Below are positions 3-7,985 of a DNA stretch of 60,602 nucleotides, piece after piece. Origin of the DNA: Clostridia bacterium (GTDB taxonomy: Bacteria; Bacillota; Clostridia; Christensenellales; CAG-138); assembly GCA_030533005.1 (NCBI GenBank), contig JAUNJX010000004.1, forward strand, positions 22,841 through 83,442, written 5' to 3'. The notes under the pieces were generated by a model. The model was not told the origin of the DNA, ran no database searches, and worked only from the letters and a program-made list of their open reading frames with translations. A program made the position numbers and the translations under genes. Each line of letters opens with the position of its first letter. Positions within the stretch are counted from its first letter, which is position 1.

Positions 3-746
3 CCGTATGGCAGCATCAACAGCGACGCGGAGGCCGAGCGCATTGGCCGCAAGCACTTTGCCGAGGCGTGGCCGGGCAAGGAGTTTGACCCCAAATACGA
101 TATTGAGCCGTATCGCTACGCATGTGAGATGCGCCTTGACGATATTTACCTTGATGTCGTCAAGACAAGCATACCAATATTGGATATTGCGCCATATAAC
201 ATGCATGCGGGTGAGCATGGCACAAGCGATATGACGCAATTCAAAACCAACAGACAGCTCGCGGGTGAATTGAGCTTTGAAAAGCTGAACAATTACGCAG
301 AAATAGCCGGAATGTTTGTAGACAACTACACCATGTACGACCCCGAATATCCCGTTGAGAAGCGCAAGGCGGACTTTTCCAAATGGACAACGCCGGAGCT
401 TGCGGAGATCCTCGCCAACCGCACCCGCACATCCAGCGATAAGGCTTGGTTCAAGCAGGATACTTGTACGTTTTATTCTGGCCCCTACGTCTACAGGGCG
501 TCTGACGGCTGGCTGCGGGCAAGAGTGCAGATGGCGATCATCCTGCGGGATGCGTCCGACGCTTTCTTTGCGGAGCATCCCGACCAAAGGGAGGCTGTAG
601 GAAGATGGCATATCCATACATATGAGGTAGCCATGCAGCTTGACGATAACGAAAAGATCGCAGAATACGCGGTTTTTGAGTTAGGAACGGCATATGAAGC
701 TTCACCCGACGAAACAAAACGGTTGGATGATTTCTTCAACAGTTAA
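3..746 (+). CDS. exported/lipoprotein-family protein, 5' truncated by window edge
   Basis: The reading frame is open to the left edge, so the true start lies outside the window; at least 247 residues are present. I do not recognise a named domain. It is a paralogue of the lipoprotein at 932-1921: both have an xxPYNM motif followed by a TNRQLAGEL/TNKELVAEY stretch, and later a (V/I)Y(R/K)A(S/A)DGxLRAR segment followed by a DA(F/Y) stretch at similar spacing. This copy was therefore probably exported or lipid-anchored too, but its signal peptide cannot be seen. An internal ATG at 129 has no clear ribosome-binding site and cuts into the conserved part, so it is unlikely to be the start. The next gene is its paralogue, 185 nt downstream. 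Function unknown. Confidence 0.75.
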   Translation, partial: PYGSINSDAEAERIGRKHFAEAWPGKEFDPKYDIEPYRYACEMRLDDIYLDVVKTSIPILDIAPYNMHAGEHGTSDMTQFKTNRQLAGELSFEKLNNYAEIAGMFVDNYTMYDPEYPVEKRKADFSKWTTPELAEILANRTRTSSDKAWFKQDTCTFYSGPYVYRASDGWLRARVQMAIILRDASDAFFAEHPDQREAVGRWHIHTYEVAMQLDDNEKIAEYAVFELGTAYEASPDETKRLDDFFNS

Positions 747-766
747 GATACGACAACAAAGAAAAA

Positions 767-790
767 AGAGGATGCAGCATTGCATCTTCT
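767..790 (+). terminator. weak terminator-like hairpin
   Basis: A 10-bp stem (one G-T pair) with a GCAT loop follows the first gene by about 20 nt. It has no downstream T run, so termination would be weak. Confidence 0.35.
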
Positions 791-931
791 GATCGAGAGC
801 GTGAACAACGCGAAGTAAGGCAAATGACCCCCTATCCGAAACCCCAAATTATATACAATTATTTTTGTCACAAAACACACCGTTTTTCCGTTGTACATGT
901 ATAAGGAAAAAGAAGGGAGCTGAAACGCTAT

Positions 932-1921
932 ATGAAGAAGATTTTTTGTATCCTGCTTGTTCTGCTGATGCTCACGAGCATGGGCGGCTGTCAGGTATTC
1001 AACGAGGCGCTGATCGGCGCGGGCTTGGCAGAGCAGCCGAGCGACACCAGCGGCTTTGACGAGATGCAGGCCGCGCGCGCAGAACAGGAGAAAAAGGACG
1101 TCGAGGCTGCGGAAAAAGCCAAGGCCGAGGCTGCCGCACTTATCCCCATGGAGGAAGTCAAGGAGGAGGAGCCGGAGGAAAAGGGCGCGCATAAGAATAC
1201 GGACGCCGAGATTTCAAGGATCGCAACGCCCTACGGCGCAAAGTATTTCGACGGCGGCTATCAGACGGCGGTGCATAAGCCGTTCTTCCTGTATGCCAAG
1301 ACGCCCACCAAGGCCGATTTCACGGATGCGGGACCAATCGAGGACTTTTACGCGCTGATTCCCTACAACATGTTCATCGACGATATGGGCGACAGCCCGT
1401 CGCAGTTCCTTACCAACAAGGAGCTTGTTGCGGAATACGGCGCGCTGAAAACGGAAGAAATAGCAGAAAAGGCGTCTATTTTTGCGATGTACGCTTGCTC
1501 CAATTTTCCACGAGAAATGCAGGTCGAGACGCTGGAAAAGCAGTACCTTGAAAGTGGTTTGCCTGCGGAAAAGGCAAGACAATACGCGGAGGATCGTGTT
1601 GCTTACTATACGAATAACAAGCACTTTCTGGACGATTCTGCTGGATGGTATAAATCGCAGATATACAAGGCTGCGGATGGAAAACTGCGTGCGCGAATTG
1701 CCCTGTATCAAGTGGTGCGAGAAGCGGACGACGCCTATTTGCAGGATATCAATTTATCGCGTGATATGCTCAATGTATGGACGCAGATACCCGCCGAGGT
1801 CGTGATCTCCGTGGACGAACAGCAGAACATCACGGATATGGTGATGCTGTTCCTTGGCGACAGGCAGGTATGCCCAGACGAAGTGCAGAAATCGCTTGAA
1901 AAAAACTGCGAACCATATTAA
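932..1921 (+). CDS. lipoprotein of unrecognised family
   Basis: The product is 329 residues with a classic lipoprotein signal: KK at residues 2-3, a leucine-rich core, and a lipobox SMGGC with the Cys at about residue 20. Residues 40-85 are rich in Ala, Glu and Lys (charged linker, possibly coiled coil). The remaining C-terminal part is the domain shared with the partial gene to its left (PYNM, TNKELVAEY, KAADGKLRAR). Start at 932 is supported by AGAAGGGAG 12 nt upstream. A good intrinsic terminator follows. A third relative, cut off soon after its lipobox, lies at 2494. Probably surface-anchored; substrate and role unknown. Confidence 0.85.
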   Translation: MKKIFCILLVLLMLTSMGGCQVFNEALIGAGLAEQPSDTSGFDEMQAARAEQEKKDVEAAEKAKAEAAALIPMEEVKEEEPEEKGAHKNTDAEISRIATPYGAKYFDGGYQTAVHKPFFLYAKTPTKADFTDAGPIEDFYALIPYNMFIDDMGDSPSQFLTNKELVAEYGALKTEEIAEKASIFAMYACSNFPREMQVETLEKQYLESGLPAEKARQYAEDRVAYYTNNKHFLDDSAGWYKSQIYKAADGKLRARIALYQVVREADDAYLQDINLSRDMLNVWTQIPAEVVISVDEQQNITDMVMLFLGDRQVCPDEVQKSLEKNCEPY

Positions 1922-1947
1922 AGCATAACCGTACATAAGAACAACCT

Positions 1948-1973
1948 AAAAGAACGGGCAACCGTTCTTTTTT
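1948..1973 (+). terminator. intrinsic terminator
   Basis: A 10-bp stem (AAAAGAACGG paired with CCGTTCTTTT), GCAA loop and a T run, 27 nt after the lipoprotein stop. It sits just before the ribosome-binding site of the next gene, so it separates the two transcripts or attenuates read-through. Confidence 0.85.
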
Positions 1974-1991
1974 CTATGAAAGGAGAAGCGC

Positions 1992-2390
1992 ATGAAAACT
2001 TCAAGAAAATGGATCGTCACGCTTTTATTAGCTGCATTCTTGCTGTGCGGCATCTCAGACGCCTTTGCAAGAGGAAACCCCAGTTACGCTGGCACAGGCT
2101 GGTATCCGGGGAAAACGGCCACTGTCAGCAACGGGGTCACTTACAACATTGGCTACGGCGGCGGCAGCACCTATGCGCGTGAAACGACATGGGAGTTCCC
2201 CGAAAACAGCGCCAGCGGCACGAGAGCAAAGAAGTGGTATGTGCCCGTATGGTGGCCGGATGGCAGCGAGTACACCTTCCTCGTCGCGGCCAAGGGCGCG
2301 ATCACGCCGGGCGGCGAGATCACGGCGGCCAAGGCGTACACCATCAGCATCGACGATAATATGTATACGGACGATTACACCAAGAACTAA
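1992..2390 (+). CDS. small secreted protein, unknown function
   Basis: A 132-residue protein with an N-terminal signal peptide (KTSRK, a leucine/alanine core, and a probable cleavage after DAFA at about residue 26). The mature part is glycine- and aromatic-rich near the start (YNIGYGGGSTYA) and then carries tryptophan-rich stretches (TTWEFPE, KKWYVPVWWPDGSEY). It has no cysteine after the signal and no lipobox, so it is probably released or wall-associated. Start at 1992 is preceded by AAAGGAG. It lies between two members of the lipoprotein family, which suggests a linked surface function, but I do not recognise the family. Confidence 0.8.
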   Translation: MKTSRKWIVTLLLAAFLLCGISDAFARGNPSYAGTGWYPGKTATVSNGVTYNIGYGGGSTYARETTWEFPENSASGTRAKKWYVPVWWPDGSEYTFLVAAKGAITPGGEITAAKAYTISIDDNMYTDDYTKN

Positions 2391-2416
2391 GCGCATTGCG
2401 CTTTCTTACGACGATT

Positions 2417-2448
2417 GCGCCGCCGCGGGTATCGGCCTGCGGCGGCGC
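2417..2448 (+). repeat. perfect 10-bp inverted repeat
   Basis: GCGCCGCCGC pairs with GCGGCGGCGC across a 12-nt loop, between the small secreted gene and the truncated lipoprotein. No T run follows, so it is at best an unconventional terminator or an mRNA stability element. Confidence 0.6.
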
Positions 2449-2493
2449 TGTATTGGACGAAAGACTATCATTTGGAAGGGAGCAGGACACGAT

Positions 2494-2610
2494 ATGAAAA
2501 AGATGATTTGCGTGCTTTTTGCGCTTCTGCTGACGGCAAGCATGGGCGGCTGTCAGGTCATGGACGAGGCGCTTGTGGAAAGTTCTCGACATATATTGAT
2601 AAATTATTAA
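2494..2610 (+). pseudogene. truncated lipoprotein paralogue (signal peptide plus 18 residues)
   Basis: This 38-codon frame starts with a good ribosome-binding site (GGAAGGGAGC) and encodes a lipoprotein signal almost matching the one at 932: both run into SMGGCQV followed by (N/D)EAL. After DEALVE the homology stops and the frame ends in a short, unrelated, AT-rich tail. It is best read as the stump of a third family member whose body was lost. Translation could still yield a small lipopeptide. The rnf promoter begins about 20 nt after its stop, so the deletion endpoint lies directly against the Rnf operon. Confidence 0.7.
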
Positions 2611-2658: not shown

Positions 2659-2718
2659 AGACATAACACGGTATGATTCGACATCGCAAAGGCAAACAAT
2701 CAAGCAAGGAAAGTGCGG

Positions 2719-3252
2719 ATGACTATGCAAAGGGAAAAAGCTGCGTGGCTGGTATTGGCGCTGATTGCCATGGGCGCTGGGTTGCTGTTGGGCTTTACCA
2801 ACGCCGTGACGGCGGACGTGATCGCGCAGCGCGCACTGGATGCGGCGGAGCAGGCGCGGCGGGAGGTCTTTCCCGCGGCGCAAGCGTTTGTCGAGCTTCC
2901 GCCCTGCGACGCGGTGCAGGATAGCTTTTGCGCGATGCAAGGCGAACAGTGCATAGGCTATGTGTGCACGCTAAGCGTTCAGGGCTACGGCGGCCCCATC
3001 GAGGTGGTCGTGGGCTTAGACGCGGCGGGCGCGCTTACGGGCATTTCCGTCGGCGGCAGCCGATTCGCCGAAACCGCAGGGCTGGGCGCGAACACCAGGT
3101 CGCCCGCCTTTACGGGGCAGTTTGCGGGGCTTGTGCCGCCGCTGACCGTCAAAAAGGATGTGGACGCGGTGACGGGCGCCACGATCAGCTCTACGGCCGT
3201 AGTAAACGCCGTCAATGCGGCGGCAGCGTATGTAGCGGGTCTTGATCAATAG
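2719..3252 (+). CDS. rnfG: RnfG, FMN-binding subunit of the Rnf complex
   Basis: Membrane-anchored flavoprotein of the Rnf ferredoxin:NAD+ oxidoreductase. It has one N-terminal membrane helix (about residues 8-28) and an FMN-binding domain ending in the VTGATISS motif near residue 155, whose Thr is the known covalent FMN site in NqrC/RnfG. ATG 2719 is chosen because AAGGA lies 8 nt upstream; GTG 2713 and ATG 2725 are in frame alternatives. At about 177 residues it is slightly shorter than many RnfG proteins. Oddly, it is the first gene of the operon; in the usual clostridial order rnfG lies between rnfD and rnfE, and no second copy is present there. Confidence 0.88.
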   Translation: MTMQREKAAWLVLALIAMGAGLLLGFTNAVTADVIAQRALDAAEQARREVFPAAQAFVELPPCDAVQDSFCAMQGEQCIGYVCTLSVQGYGGPIEVVVGLDAAGALTGISVGGSRFAETAGLGANTRSPAFTGQFAGLVPPLTVKKDVDAVTGATISSTAVVNAVNAAAAYVAGLDQ

Positions 3253-3270
3253 AGAAAAGGGGCACGGCTT

Positions 3271-4608
3271 TTGGCAAAGAATACCTTCCGTGGGGGCGTG
3301 TTCCCCATGAAAAAGATAAAGAACGCGCACGAGGGCAAGGGGCCCACAAGGGAACAGCCCACGCGCGCTTACAGCCCCGCGCGGGTGGTCATACCCGTGC
3401 AGCTGCACCTTGGCGCGCCCAGCGAACCCTGCGTCAAGGCGGGCGAGCGGGTCAGGCTGGGGCAGGTCGTGGCGACGCCTATGGGTGGCCTTGGCTTGCC
3501 CGTGCACGCGAGCGTTTCGGGTACGGTCACGGCCATAGAGGATCGCATCCAGTTTGGCGGGCTGCCCGTGCGCTGCATCGTCATCGAGAACGACGGGCTG
3601 GACGAATGGGTCGAGCTTACCCCCTTGGGCGACGTGGAAACCGTCCCGGCGGAGAGCATCATCCCCGCCATACGGGACGCCGGCATATGCGGCATGGGCG
3701 GGGCGACCTTCCCCACGCACGCCAAGCTCACCATCCCCGAAGGGAAGCATTGCGACACGGTGATCGTCAACGGCGCGGAGTGCGAAACGCACCTGACGTC
3801 GGATTTCCGGCTGATGCTGGAGCAGCCCTTGCGCATCGTGGACGGCCTGCGCGCCGTCATGCGGGCGCTGGGCGTAGAACGTGGCGTGATCGCGGTGGAG
3901 GATAACAAGCCGGAGGCCGTCGCGGCGCTTATGGCGTGCGCGGAGGGGCGCGCGGGCGTTTCTGTGGTCGTGATGCCCACTAAATACCCGCAGGGCAGCG
4001 AAAAGCAGCTCATCAAGGCGGTCACGGATCGGGAGGTGCCGGCCTTCAAGCTGCCCATCGACGTGCATACGGTGGTCGTAAACGTCGCAACCGCCGCGGC
4101 CATTGCGGACGCGGTGACGCTGGGGAAGCCCCTAGTCGAGCGCATCACCACCGTGACGGGCTGCGTAAGAGAGCCCGGCAACCTGCTGCTTCGCATCGGC
4201 ACGCTGTTTCAAGACGCGATCAACGCCTGCGGCGGCTACAGCCAGCAGCCGGGCAAGATCATCGCGGGCGGCGCCATGACGGGCATCTGCGCGCCGGACG
4301 ATCAGGTATCCGTAGGCAAGGGAAGCGGCGGGATACTCGTCATGAACGTGCGGGAGGCAAAGACGGATCAGGAGCAGCCCTGCATCCGCTGCGCGCGCTG
4401 CGCGGAGGTCTGCCCCATCGGCCTTGACCCCTTTTTGATCAAATATTACTGCGACCACGAGGATTATGACGGCGCGGAAGAGCATCATGTCATGGAGTGC
4501 ATGATGTGCGGGTGCTGCGCCTACATCTGCCCCTCGCGGCGATGGCTCACCACCTCCTTCCGCACGGCGCGGCAGGTCATTTCGGCAAGGCGAAGGGAGG
4601 AAAAGTAA
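3271..4608 (+). CDS. rnfC: RnfC, NADH-binding iron-sulfur subunit of Rnf
   Basis: The 445-residue peripheral subunit that exchanges electrons with NAD(H). Visible parts in order are: the N-terminal FRGGV motif typical of RnfC; a barrel-sandwich stretch (LPVHASVSGTVTAIED); the nucleotide/FMN-binding GMGGATFPTHAK loop; an NGAECE motif; an SLBB-like region; and two 4Fe-4S motifs near the C-terminus (CIRCARCAEVCP and CMMCGCCAYICP). TTG 3271 is the start because the family motif begins there and GAAAAGGGG lies upstream. The stop overlaps the rnfD start (TAATG), so translation is coupled. Confidence 0.93.
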   Translation: MAKNTFRGGVFPMKKIKNAHEGKGPTREQPTRAYSPARVVIPVQLHLGAPSEPCVKAGERVRLGQVVATPMGGLGLPVHASVSGTVTAIEDRIQFGGLPVRCIVIENDGLDEWVELTPLGDVETVPAESIIPAIRDAGICGMGGATFPTHAKLTIPEGKHCDTVIVNGAECETHLTSDFRLMLEQPLRIVDGLRAVMRALGVERGVIAVEDNKPEAVAALMACAEGRAGVSVVVMPTKYPQGSEKQLIKAVTDREVPAFKLPIDVHTVVVNVATAAAIADAVTLGKPLVERITTVTGCVREPGNLLLRIGTLFQDAINACGGYSQQPGKIIAGGAMTGICAPDDQVSVGKGSGGILVMNVREAKTDQEQPCIRCARCAEVCPIGLDPFLIKYYCDHEDYDGAEEHHVMECMMCGCCAYICPSRRWLTTSFRTARQVISARRREEK

Positions 4609-5540
4609 TGGCACAGGAAAAGAAGCTGCGCTTATCCACCGCGCCGCACATCCACTGCAAGCAAAGCGCGCAGACCATCATGTTGGACGTGATTTTGGCG
4701 CTTCTGCCCTGCGCGATCATCGGCGTGATCTACTTTGGCAAAAACGCCGCGCGCATTTTGGTATTGACCACCCTCTCCGCCGTGTTTGCGGAATATTTCT
4801 CGCAAAAGGTCGCCCAAAAGCCCGTGCGCATCCGCGACCTTTCCGCCGTGGTGACGGGGCTGATCCTCGGCTTGAACCTGCCGCCCACGGCTCCTTGGTG
4901 GCTGTGCGTGGTGGGCAGCGTCATCGCCATCGTCGTGGTCAAGCAGCTCTTTGGGGGCATCGGCCACAACTTCATGAATCCCGCCATGGCGGCGCGCGCC
5001 ATACTGCTTACAAGCTGGCCCGTGCGCATGACGAGCTTCGTATATCCGCAGCTGTTTTCCCAAGGCGTGGACACGGTATCCTTTGCGACCCCGTTACAGG
5101 GTGGCAGCGCCACGCTTTTTGACCTTTTGATCGGCAACGTTCCGGGCTGCATCGGCGAGGTGTGCAAGCTTGCCATCCTCCTTGGCGCTGCCTACCTGCT
5201 CCTTCGCGGCGTGATACGGTGGTATATCCCCGTTTGCTTTGTGGCAAGCTACCTGCTTTTTGCGCGGCTTTTCGGGGCGGACGCGATTGCGGGCGTGCTT
5301 TCGGGCGGCCTGCTCTTTGGCGCGGTGTTTATGGCGACGGATTACACCACCACCCCCATGACCGCGCGGGGGCAGATGCTCTTTGGCGCAGGCTGCGGGT
5401 TTTTGGTGGCGCTCATCCGCTCGTTCGGCACCTATCCCGAGGGCGTGACCTACGCGATCCTTTTGATGAACGTCGCCACACCGCTCATCGACAAGTATGT
5501 AAAGGTGCGCATGTACGGGGAAAGGGGGCGCGCGGCATGA
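4608..5540 (+). CDS. rnfD: RnfD, membrane subunit of Rnf with covalent FMN site
   Basis: A polytopic 310-residue subunit of the Rnf complex (NqrB family), involved in membrane electron transfer and ion translocation. It shows the family's long hydrophobic segments, the GGIGHNFMNPAMAAR motif, a FATPL segment at the expected FMN-attachment region, and a C-terminal ATDYTTTPMT stretch. The Thr of the FMN site is kept, while the usual small residue before Ala is Phe here. ATG 4608 overlaps the rnfC stop by one base, and the downstream frame overlaps rnfE by four bases, as in a tightly coupled operon. Confidence 0.92.
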   Translation: MAQEKKLRLSTAPHIHCKQSAQTIMLDVILALLPCAIIGVIYFGKNAARILVLTTLSAVFAEYFSQKVAQKPVRIRDLSAVVTGLILGLNLPPTAPWWLCVVGSVIAIVVVKQLFGGIGHNFMNPAMAARAILLTSWPVRMTSFVYPQLFSQGVDTVSFATPLQGGSATLFDLLIGNVPGCIGEVCKLAILLGAAYLLLRGVIRWYIPVCFVASYLLFARLFGADAIAGVLSGGLLFGAVFMATDYTTTPMTARGQMLFGAGCGFLVALIRSFGTYPEGVTYAILLMNVATPLIDKYVKVRMYGERGRAA

Positions 5541-6172
5541 ACAAGAAAAGCCTTCGCAGCGTATTTCTAAACGGCGTATTGACGGAAAACCCCACCTTCC
5601 GGCTGGTGCTGGGGACGTGCCCCACGCTCGCGGTGACGACCAGCGCAAAAAACGGCGTGGGCATGGGGCTCGCCGCGACCTTCGTGCTCATCGGCTCCAA
5701 CGCCGTGATAGCGCTGCTTCGCAGCCTCATTCCCGCGAAAGTCCGCATACCCGCCTATATCGTTATCATCTGCACGTTTGTGACGGTTGTGCAGATGCTG
5801 ATGCAGGCATATGTGCCGGAGCTGTACGAAAGCCTTGGCATGTTCATCCCCTTGATCGTGGTGAACTGCATCATTCTCGCCCGGGCCGAAGCGTTTGCGA
5901 GTAAAAACGGCGTGCTCCTGTCCATGGCGGACGGCTTGGGCATGGGCTTGGGCTTTACCGCCGCCATCACGCTGATCGGCTGCATACGGGAGCTGATCGG
6001 CGCGGGCACGGTGTTCGGCCTCCCCGTCATGGGGCCAAGCTACGAGCCCATGATGATCATGATCCTGGCGCCCGGCGGCTTTATCGTGTTCGGGAGCCTG
6101 TTGGGGCTCGCCAATTTCATCACGTCCTACCGGGAAGAAAAGCGCATGCTTAGAGAGGAGGCGGAGCAATGA
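5537..6172 (+). CDS. rnfE: RnfE, membrane subunit of Rnf
   Basis: A 211-residue polytopic subunit of the RnfA/RnfE (NqrD/NqrE) family. Family signatures are visible: LGTCPTLAVTTSAKNG near residue 25 and VVNCIILARAEAFASKN near residue 110. These helices pair with RnfA around a conserved cysteine pair that takes part in transmembrane electron transfer. The start codon overlaps the rnfD stop (ATGA), and the stop overlaps the rnfA start in the same way. The normal position of rnfG, between rnfD and rnfE, is absent. Confidence 0.93.
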   Translation: MNKKSLRSVFLNGVLTENPTFRLVLGTCPTLAVTTSAKNGVGMGLAATFVLIGSNAVIALLRSLIPAKVRIPAYIVIICTFVTVVQMLMQAYVPELYESLGMFIPLIVVNCIILARAEAFASKNGVLLSMADGLGMGLGFTAAITLIGCIRELIGAGTVFGLPVMGPSYEPMMIMILAPGGFIVFGSLLGLANFITSYREEKRMLREEAEQ

Positions 6173-6756
6173 ACGAGCTATCCCGCATTTTGCTTTTTAT
6201 GCTTAGCTGCGTGTTGAGCCACAACTTCATCTTCGCCCGCTTCCTAGGCTGCTGCTCCTTCCTTGGCGTTTCCAGCAAGGTGGAAACGGCGGCGGGCATG
6301 GGGCTTGCGGTGACGTTTGTGATGGGTCTTGCGTCGCTGTTTACATGGGTCGTGTATCATGGGGTGCTCGTGCCGCTGGGCTTGGAGTATCTAAGCACGC
6401 TAAGCTTCGTGCTGTTGATCGCAAGCCTTGTGCAGCTTGTGGAGATGTACATCAAAAAGAGCAGCCCCTCGCTGTACAAATCCCTTGGCATTTATCTTCC
6501 GCTCATCACCACCAACTGCGCGGTGCTGGGCGTGGCCATACTCAACGTGAATAACGACTATAATCTCCTCTACGCGGTGCTCAATGGCGTATTCGGCGCG
6601 CTGGGCTTTTTGCTGGCCATCGTTTTGATGGCGGGCGTGCGGGAGCGGCTGGAGGTCGCGGATATACCGAAACCCCTTCGCGGCTTTCCGATCTCGCTGA
6701 TCATCGCGGGGCTGATGAGCGTGGCGTTTATGGGATTTTCGGGGCTGGGAGGCTGA
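6169..6756 (+). CDS. rnfA: RnfA, membrane subunit of Rnf
   Basis: A 195-residue polytopic membrane protein of the RnfA/NqrE family. Typical segments are FARFLGCCSFLGVS near residue 25 and LPLITTNCAVLGVAILN near residue 105; the Cys of each is expected to sit at the RnfA-RnfE interface. Six hydrophobic helices are evident. It starts in an ATGA overlap with rnfE and is followed after 4 nt by rnfB. Confidence 0.93.
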   Translation: MNELSRILLFMLSCVLSHNFIFARFLGCCSFLGVSSKVETAAGMGLAVTFVMGLASLFTWVVYHGVLVPLGLEYLSTLSFVLLIASLVQLVEMYIKKSSPSLYKSLGIYLPLITTNCAVLGVAILNVNNDYNLLYAVLNGVFGALGFLLAIVLMAGVRERLEVADIPKPLRGFPISLIIAGLMSVAFMGFSGLGG

Positions 6757-6760
6757 TAGG

Positions 6761-7558
6761 ATGAATTGGTTGCCCGTATTCCTCGCCTTTGGCGTGATCG
6801 GCGCGCTGGGGACGCTGTGCGGCGTGATGCTCACGGCGGCGGATAAGAAATTTGCGGTGCAAAGCGACGAACGCTGGCAGCAGGTGCGGCAGGCGCTGGG
6901 CGGCGCGAATTGCGGCGCGTGCGGCTATTCCGGCTGCAATGCGTACGCGGAGGCCATCGTGGCGGGCAAGGCGCGCATCTACGCCTGCCCTTCCGCCAAT
7001 ACCGAGGCGATCGCCGCGGCGATGGGGATGCAGCTTGAGTCCCCCATCCCCATGAAGGCCTATGTGCGCTGCCAGGGAAACCGGGGCAACACCAAGGAAC
7101 GCTACATCTACGATGGTTACCAAAGCTGCGTGACCGCCGCCACCATGGCGGGCGGCCCCAAGATGTGCTGCTATGCCTGCTTGGGTCTTGGCGATTGCGA
7201 AAAGGTGTGCCCCTTTGGCGCGATCTCCATCCAGAACGGCGTGGCCGTGGTGGACGAGTTTCGCTGCGTGGGCTGCGGCAACTGCGCGCGTTACTGCCCG
7301 CGCCACGCGATCGAATTAAAGCCCGCCGCCTCCAAGGTATACGTCAAGTGCAACAACGGCACGCTGGGCCGCACCACGCGCGCGCACTGCATCAAGTCCT
7401 GCATAGGCTGCGGCGCGTGCGCAAAAAAATGCCCCCAGCAGGCCATCGAGATCAAAAACGGCCATGCGGTGGTGGATTATAGCAGGTGCGACGATTGCTT
7501 GGCGTGCTTGAGCGTCTGCCCCAGCTGGTGCATCGTCACGGAGCAGGATTGGAGGTAG
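6761..7558 (+). CDS. rnfB: RnfB, ferredoxin-interacting polyferredoxin subunit of Rnf
   Basis: The 265-residue electron entry subunit. An N-terminal membrane helix is followed by the four-Cys cluster motif (NCGACGYSGC plus a Cys 16 residues on) and then four further ferredoxin-type motifs: CYACLGLGDCEKVCP, CVGCGNCARYCP, CIGCGACAKKCP and CDDCLACLSVCP. That makes five 4Fe-4S clusters in total. It receives electrons from reduced ferredoxin and passes them into the membrane part. It sits last among the canonical rnf genes, one base before the RseC-like gene. Confidence 0.93.
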   Translation: MNWLPVFLAFGVIGALGTLCGVMLTAADKKFAVQSDERWQQVRQALGGANCGACGYSGCNAYAEAIVAGKARIYACPSANTEAIAAAMGMQLESPIPMKAYVRCQGNRGNTKERYIYDGYQSCVTAATMAGGPKMCCYACLGLGDCEKVCPFGAISIQNGVAVVDEFRCVGCGNCARYCPRHAIELKPAASKVYVKCNNGTLGRTTRAHCIKSCIGCGACAKKCPQQAIEIKNGHAVVDYSRCDDCLACLSVCPSWCIVTEQDWR

Positions 7559-7559
7559 C

Positions 7560-7985
7560 ATGCAGCAAACGGGTCAGGTGATCGCCGTAGAGAACGGCAC
7601 GGCGACGGTGCGCATCCAGCGCTGTGAAGCGTGCGAGCACTGCGGCGCGTGCTTCCGCATCGGCGAAAAGGAAGCGGATATTTTGCTCCATAACCCCGTG
7701 GGCGCGCGCGTGGGCGACTATGTTGCGATCCATATGCGCCCGCAAAACGTGCTTTTGGCAAGCGCCATCGCCTACGGGATACCGCTGTGCGCGCTGCTGA
7801 TCGGCGTGCTGCTGGGCTCCCTTTGGGGGGACGTTTACACGGCGCTTGGCGGCGTCCTCTTTCCTGCCGCCGCGTTCTTCCTTCTTCGCGCGCTGGAGCC
7901 GCGCCTTGCGAAAAACCGCACGCTGCTGCCCGCGATCACCCGCATCCTCCCGCCGCCTGCCATAATAGACGCGGAGCGCGCGTAG
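7560..7985 (+). CDS. RseC/SoxR-reducing-system-like membrane protein
   Basis: A 141-residue protein with an N-terminal OB-like segment bearing a Cys cluster (CEACEHCGAC near residue 22), two membrane helices (about residues 75-120) and a short C-terminal tail. This matches the RseC/MucC family, which often accompanies Rnf genes and is thought to help assemble or interact with them. It starts one base after the rnfB stop, so it is the seventh gene of the operon. Its precise role in anaerobic Gram-positives is not established. Confidence 0.82.
   Translation: MQQTGQVIAVENGTATVRIQRCEACEHCGACFRIGEKEADILLHNPVGARVGDYVAIHMRPQNVLLASAIAYGIPLCALLIGVLLGSLWGDVYTALGGVLFPAAAFFLLRALEPRLAKNRTLLPAITRILPPPAIIDAERA

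Follow-up and report, generated by a model that had tools for sequence, protein, structure and literature searches.

The lipoprotein genes in front of the rnf genes, a cluster for energy metabolism, of this Clostridia bacterium appear to form a species-restricted tandem family that evolves by unequal crossing-over anchored in a repeated leader and by gene conversion, a reading with an estimated probability of about 0.62. Its members are homologous and lie in direct orientation; the first and third full members carry an identical leader, the first two form a mosaic of near-identical and strongly diverged stretches, and the last has been reduced to a stump. The locus would thereby be a small, clear case of a species-restricted lipoprotein family that grows, stays partly uniform and is lost. 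The window, that is, the whole stretch of 60,602 nucleotides that was analysed, comprises positions 22841-83442 of contig C84 in a fragmented assembly (95 contigs, 84.85% complete; genome size 2.26 Mb). A scaffold gap of 100 N ends directly before the first base of the window, and positions prefixed L006 belong to a stretch that also includes the DNA to the left of this gap.

The locus begins with a flavodiiron-like gene, a Sir2-like gene on the minus strand, a Bro-N antirepressor and RelB-like and ParE/RelE-like genes, followed by a leader and copy 1 (L006:13665-14606), which is a complete lipoprotein gene of 313 aa outside the window, and then the gap. To the right of the gap lie copy 2 (3-746, 247 aa), a leader with copy 3 (932-1921, a full lipoprotein of 329 aa), a small secreted protein (1992-2390), the stump as fourth member (2494-2610) and the rnf genes from rnfG onward. 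All the copies, the stump and the small protein are on the plus strand. The initial annotation, made from the window, had placed these four open reading frames (the first open to the left) exactly as found here and had recognised three related members in line, which is correct: copies 2 and 3 are homologous and the stump is specifically related to them. It had also described the leftmost copy as truncated, proposed tandem growth and recommended a look at the DNA to the left for more copies. The truncation is real but is caused by the 100-N assembly gap, and the DNA to the left does contain one further full lipoprotein gene, copy 1, in keeping with tandem growth and contrary to the first of its refuting conditions, that relatives upstream would be missing. 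Copy 2 retains the mature part of a lipoprotein that is 81% identical to copy 1 in amino acid sequence. The left edge of the gap is situated 55 bp inside another identical leader and its right edge inside the near-identical body start of copy 2; therefore the missing piece is probably the rest of that leader together with the N-terminus of copy 2, and any count of leaders includes this one, which would lie inside the gap.

The relatedness of the members extends well beyond their signal peptides. With copy 3 as query, copy 1 is matched at an E value of 1.8e-32, and copies 2 and 3 match one another without the signal peptide at 3.3e-14 (28% identity over 183 aa). In the mature part, copy 1 has 81% identity with copy 2, each of the two has 28% identity with copy 3, and 60 columns are invariant across all three. 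Each full member carries a signal peptide with a lipobox, from which a linker leads to about 250 residues of mature part. The N-terminus is positively charged and is followed by a hydrophobic stretch and a lipobox ending in Cys (lipobox region TSMGGC in copy 3); the lipobox stretches MKKIFCILLVLLMLTSMGGC of copies 1 and 3 and MKKMICVLFALLLTASMGGC of the stump both fit the lipobox pattern, and the Pfam LPAM_1 match of copy 3 is below cut-off (12.7 vs 20 bits). The signal peptide and lipobox, the only features that speak for a surface position, let one expect a lipid anchor that holds these proteins to the outer face of the membrane. The initial annotation had named as a possible objection that the shared motifs might be a general lipoprotein feature. 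This is true of the signal peptide, in which the matches in other genomes start, but not of the three mature parts, which are themselves homologous.

The stump encodes 38 aa, namely a signal peptide and lipobox of 20 residues followed by 18 residues, and it has lost its mature part, of which no trace was found in the DNA behind it; the loss of members that had been proposed alongside growth is thus apparent. The leader of copy 1 matches the stump with 76% identity over 93 nt (E 3.1e-11), while elsewhere in the 2.26-Mb genome it finds nothing better than an E value of 0.35. Residues past the lipobox are also common to the stump (CQVMDEAL) and copy 3 (CQVFNEAL). Over 27 codons the stump differs from copy 3 with a pS of 0.53 and a pN of 0.20, and from copy 1 with values of 0.56 and 0.24, so that its divergence seems to have occurred under some constraint.

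The leader in front of copy 3 (826-996, plus strand) is 100% identical over its 171 bp to that of copy 1 (L006:13559-13729). This block is composed of 106 bp upstream of the ATG, including the ribosome binding site, and 65 bp of coding sequence that spans the signal peptide and lipobox codons and ends just past the lipobox Cys. Similarity between copies 1 and 3 drops immediately beside it, to 15 of 60 identical positions upstream and 27 of 60 downstream, and the bodies of these copies have diverged to a pS of 0.75 and a pN of 0.53. Nine matches to the leader exist in the genome, of which four are at the array, all on the plus strand, while the other five are at chance level (E of at least 0.35). 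Within this genome the leader is confined to the array locus, and no inverted copy was found among its matches.

The leader contains a 14-bp near-palindrome, TTGTACATGTATAA (891-904, plus strand), which is a possible operator. Its perfect form is present in the assembled genome at the two leaders only, and within one mismatch it occurs at five places, namely the two leaders and three others that do not look promoter-like by eye. A consensus scan located no sigma-70-like promoter in the leader. Between the stump and rnfG it gave one candidate, TTGACT-17-TAAGAT (2630-2658, L006:17470-17498, plus strand), in a scan that gave 3 such sites in 4.3 kb against 4.0 expected by chance. Downstream of copy 3 there is a terminator-like inverted repeat (1948-1971) whose right arm runs into six T on the plus strand, as read by eye, the tool having listed the minus-strand reading only. 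An Rfam scan of L006:8900-17800 gave no match.

Overall, copies 1 and 2 are 84% identical in nucleotide sequence, with successive stretches agreeing at 117 of 120 positions (the start of the shared body), 386 of 480, 127 of 146 and 132 of 134, the last being the tail together with the first 55 bp of the next leader (747-880 behind copy 2, plus strand). The most divergent block has 36 of 60 positions identical, and the synonymous difference in consecutive blocks of 40 codons is 0.17, 0.54, 0.86, 0.23, 0.28 and 0.36. The two genes are accordingly near-identical at their ends and near synonymous saturation in their middle, with a dN/dS of 0.19 over the whole shared body. None of 10,000 permutations produced an identical run as long as the longest one observed, 125 nt (largest 86), and none of 10,000 shuffles gave third-position differences as unevenly clustered as those observed; the permutations assume random placement, and codon constraint could also cluster differences, but such constraint would hardly give zero differences in the leader with saturation beside it. 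This mosaic, together with the dN/dS of 0.19, points to recombination between repeats rather than to diversifying selection. The suggestion in the initial annotation of a rapidly changing surface system therefore fares differently in its two possible senses: structural change of the lipoprotein family is evident, by recombination as it appears, whereas selection for new protein variants as a driving force is not supported, given the low dN/dS between copies 1 and 2 and the excess of pS (0.53-0.56) over pN (0.20-0.24) at the stump start. A 16-nt word in the tail behind copies 1 and 2 recurs near the 3' end of the upstream antirepressor frame, which hints, if faintly, that the duplicated unit may keep a leftover of an antirepressor-type gene.

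The following course of events could account for this pattern. The leader, repeated in front of the members, would serve as a direct repeat, and unequal crossing-over between leaders would either gain units, as in copies 1 and 2, or delete them, as in the stump. Starting from an array of two genes, a single unequal crossover between their leaders would produce the order leader, body 1, tail, leader, (gap), body 2, tail, leader and body 3. Gene conversion proceeding from the leader and the tail into the ends of the genes would keep these ends alike while the middles drift apart, although three copies do not allow the direction and time of the conversions to be read. Each copy would presumably be expressed from its own leader, although the failure of the consensus scan to locate a sigma-70-like promoter there counts against this. 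Homologous recombination as the cause, and a leader in front of copy 2, are what the repeat structure suggests.

Alternatively, copies 1 and 2 may be two strain alleles of a single gene that the scaffolder lined up across the 100-N gap, in which case the true array would consist of one variable gene, copy 3 and the stump. The gap is flanked on both sides by repeated sequence in an assembly of 95 contigs, the tails and the leaders that follow them hardly differ (132/134), and the sequence left of the gap would look alike either way, all of which favour this explanation. It is nonetheless unlikely, as 84% nucleotide identity with a near-saturated middle is low for alleles of one species. Copies 2 and 3, moreover, are located on one gap-free stretch, which leaves at least two members as tandem paralogues in any case. 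That selection for regulation and for a working signal peptide has preserved the identical leader, instead of recombination, would agree with the restriction of the perfect near-palindrome to the two leaders. However, the absence of differences over 171 bp includes the synonymous sites of the signal peptide, directly beside saturated bodies, and the stump start, itself part of a signal peptide gene, shows differences at roughly every second synonymous site (pS 0.53-0.56); this explanation must be judged highly improbable.

Another reading concerns the function of the leader. Leader-anchored surface variation systems are best described in mycoplasmas and spirochaetes. In Mycoplasmopsis bovis the promoter regions of the vsp genes are alike between genes, and vsp-type loci change by site-specific inversion, for which they have inverted copies and a recombinase; in vlsE/msp2-type cassette systems the silent cassettes are promoterless. 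The leader of the present array might likewise be a dedicated handle for exchanging mature parts between copies, in the manner of bacterial antigenic variation, and the constant leader, divergent bodies and mosaic ends do resemble variable lipoprotein loci as two reports describe them (PMC10504702, PMC4534519). Against this stand the dN/dS of 0.19, the presence of complete leaders in the same orientation at copies 1 and 3, the lack of tandem repeats, the low number of copies (about three), the restriction of the data to one genome, and the absence of a recombinase above cut-off in a scan of 13 proteins from the 13.5 kb upstream (without the frame ending at L006:9300). A TetR-like protein among these scored below the cut-off of a resolvase HTH model (19.9 vs 23.8 bits); contig C19 of the same genome carries an integrase. 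It is thus doubtful that a 171-bp block of promoter region and signal peptide acts as a handle for reshuffling exposed parts this far from mycoplasmas and spirochaetes. If the leader does work as a recombination handle in living populations, the design of a leader with a variable body would have arisen in another lineage too.

The vsp genes of Mycoplasmopsis bovis share a conserved N-terminal lipoprotein part, and each has a promoter and signal-peptide region (PMC10504702). The present array likewise comprises several lipoprotein genes whose N-terminal part is conserved, and 171 bp of leader and signal peptide are the same before the divergent copies 1 and 3. It differs in its number of copies (about three against 13) and in its lack of repetitive tandem domains (0 arrays in L006:13400-17600), of an inverted leader among the leader matches, of a recombinase among the scanned upstream proteins and of any sign of selection for protein change. 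The array is not filed as a vsp-type system because the repeats are missing and inversion was not seen, even though the leader feature is present. The design of vlsE/msp2-type systems, one expression site plus silent cassettes, does not seem to apply either, since copies 1 and 3 both have a complete leader. The map-1 type outer membrane protein genes of Ehrlichia are tandem and mostly complete with functional promoters, and past recombination among them has been inferred from synonymous sites, with conserved ends around variable regions in variable surface loci (PMC4534519). The Ehrlichia locus has 17-22 members, which are outer membrane proteins, and it is likened to the present array by organisation and not by sequence relation. 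Judged by titles among the matches listed, the literature search returned no such system in Clostridia or relatives.

The preferred reading, a recombining tandem family, also holds that this family is restricted to the species. The array is best read as a species-restricted orphan lipoprotein family, seen so far in this genome only within the scans made. Its original description as an unrecognised family is upheld, as nothing in Pfam, NCBIfam or the PDB sequences matched the mature part above a cut-off. Pfam gave no match for the mature parts and NCBIfam none above cut-off for copies 2 and 3; a match of residues 42-113 of copy 3 to the phage HK97 gp10 family (E 0.0016; 19 bits, with the cut-off at 30.8) was taken as chance. 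Neither PHROGs (copies 1 and 3; best E 0.041) nor PDB sequences (mature part; best E 0.56) returned anything significant. When 61 genomes were searched with copy 3, one of the 60 others was matched (G007, E 0.005), by residues 1-76 only. The matches in contig C4 and in G007 cover the N-terminus only, and their frames, examined by eye, are other kinds of lipoprotein. A whole-protein profile matched 51 of 102 other genomes of the family at E <=0.01 (103 genomes searched), and the matches listed outside the array all start at model position 1 or 2, the longest ending at position 146 of 313; they were taken as signal-peptide matches because of where they start and end. A profile of the mature part matched 36 of the 395 others among 396 genomes of the order at E <=0.1 (best 1.6e-4), all of them short among the matches listed, and the two best are ABC-transporter-like and AraC-like by eye. 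At E 0.001 the same profile matched none of the 390 others among 391 genomes of the class, a sample that overlaps that of the order. The whole-protein profile found nothing in genome_contigs, where copy 1 gave one match confined to residues 1-22 of the signal peptide, and no relative of the family was found in viral_contigs, in plasmids (copy 3 as query) or in phages (copy 1 as query). Such scans can miss distant relatives, but the same type of search does detect 28% identity inside the genome. The family is thus a new orphan, and its mode of evolution is ordinary.

The structure models of copies 1 and 3 have mean pLDDT values of 50 and 54, and both are derived from the same three sequences. 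In the C-terminal half, helices are modelled followed by a sheet, and among the rows listed the best structural matches of both models are NTF2/cystatin-like folds (ketosteroid isomerase, SnoaL, LinA and VirB8). VirB8 was matched with a Z score of 8.2 (rmsd 3.1, 113 aligned), hardly above the 7-8 that is the tool's typical best for models without a clear match, and an NTF2-like conjugation protein with a Z score of 7.5 (rmsd 3.9, 111 aligned). The best Foldseek E value was 0.13, and identities in the rows listed by the structural comparisons were 3-17%. The likeness to the NTF2/cystatin-like fold is therefore one of best structural matches, set against low-confidence models and no match to a sequence family. 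The C-terminal domain is possibly NTF2-like, at low model confidence, and that it might bind something is a guess.

The small secreted protein (132 aa, with a signal-peptide-like N-terminus) is present as the initial annotation had placed it, but its description as being of unknown family requires correction, for its C-terminal part recurs almost unchanged in another protein of the same genome. Its residues 56-132 (77 aa) match the C-terminus of this larger protein, on contig C19, at 92% identity (210 of 235 nt in DNA); the larger protein has 405 aa from the first listed start (L120:6306-7520) in an open frame of 487 codons. The neighbours of its gene encode a phage-type integrase, a T4SS coupling protein and a Mob_Pre relaxase, which gives it the look of belonging to an integrated conjugative element. 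The module has weaker relatives at the ends of long proteins in a genome of the same family (G014) and in one of another family of the order (G204); the latter protein contains CARDB domains and also matches a thioester domain, with a score at the cut-off. The small secreted protein thus probably represents, as a stand-alone copy, a module that otherwise forms the C-terminus of large secreted proteins. With it as query, 7 of the 296 other genomes searched in the order were matched at E 0.01, and nothing was found in viral_contigs or plasmids.

Upstream of the array, the Sir2-like protein is below its Pfam cut-off. The Bro-N antirepressor (L006:11963-12817) is split: of the 274 positions of phrog_15286 its first frame accounts for 6-197, and beyond a stop further sequence continues in the same frame. 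None of the upstream genes was found in 13 rnfC regions of relatives (tblastn, E 1e-4), some of which hold little upstream DNA and which were matched by rnf proteins only; the only other genome of the genus in the search (72% complete) gave no match to rnfC, so the insertion before rnf cannot be dated. No tie of the lipoprotein array to rnf was found beyond position. The rnf genes themselves are arranged in the order G, C, D, E, A, B, with rnfG first (2713-7558). RnfG is identified as FMN_bind by Pfam and falls just under the NCBIfam cut-off (96.4 vs 102 bits), and the other rnf names were assigned by eye and from matches to relatives. Of the 13 rnfC regions of relatives, L056 alone matches rnfG immediately in front of rnfC, and there the match falls into two neighbouring stretches. 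A protein of the RseC/MucC family is encoded directly 3' of rnfB (7560-7985).
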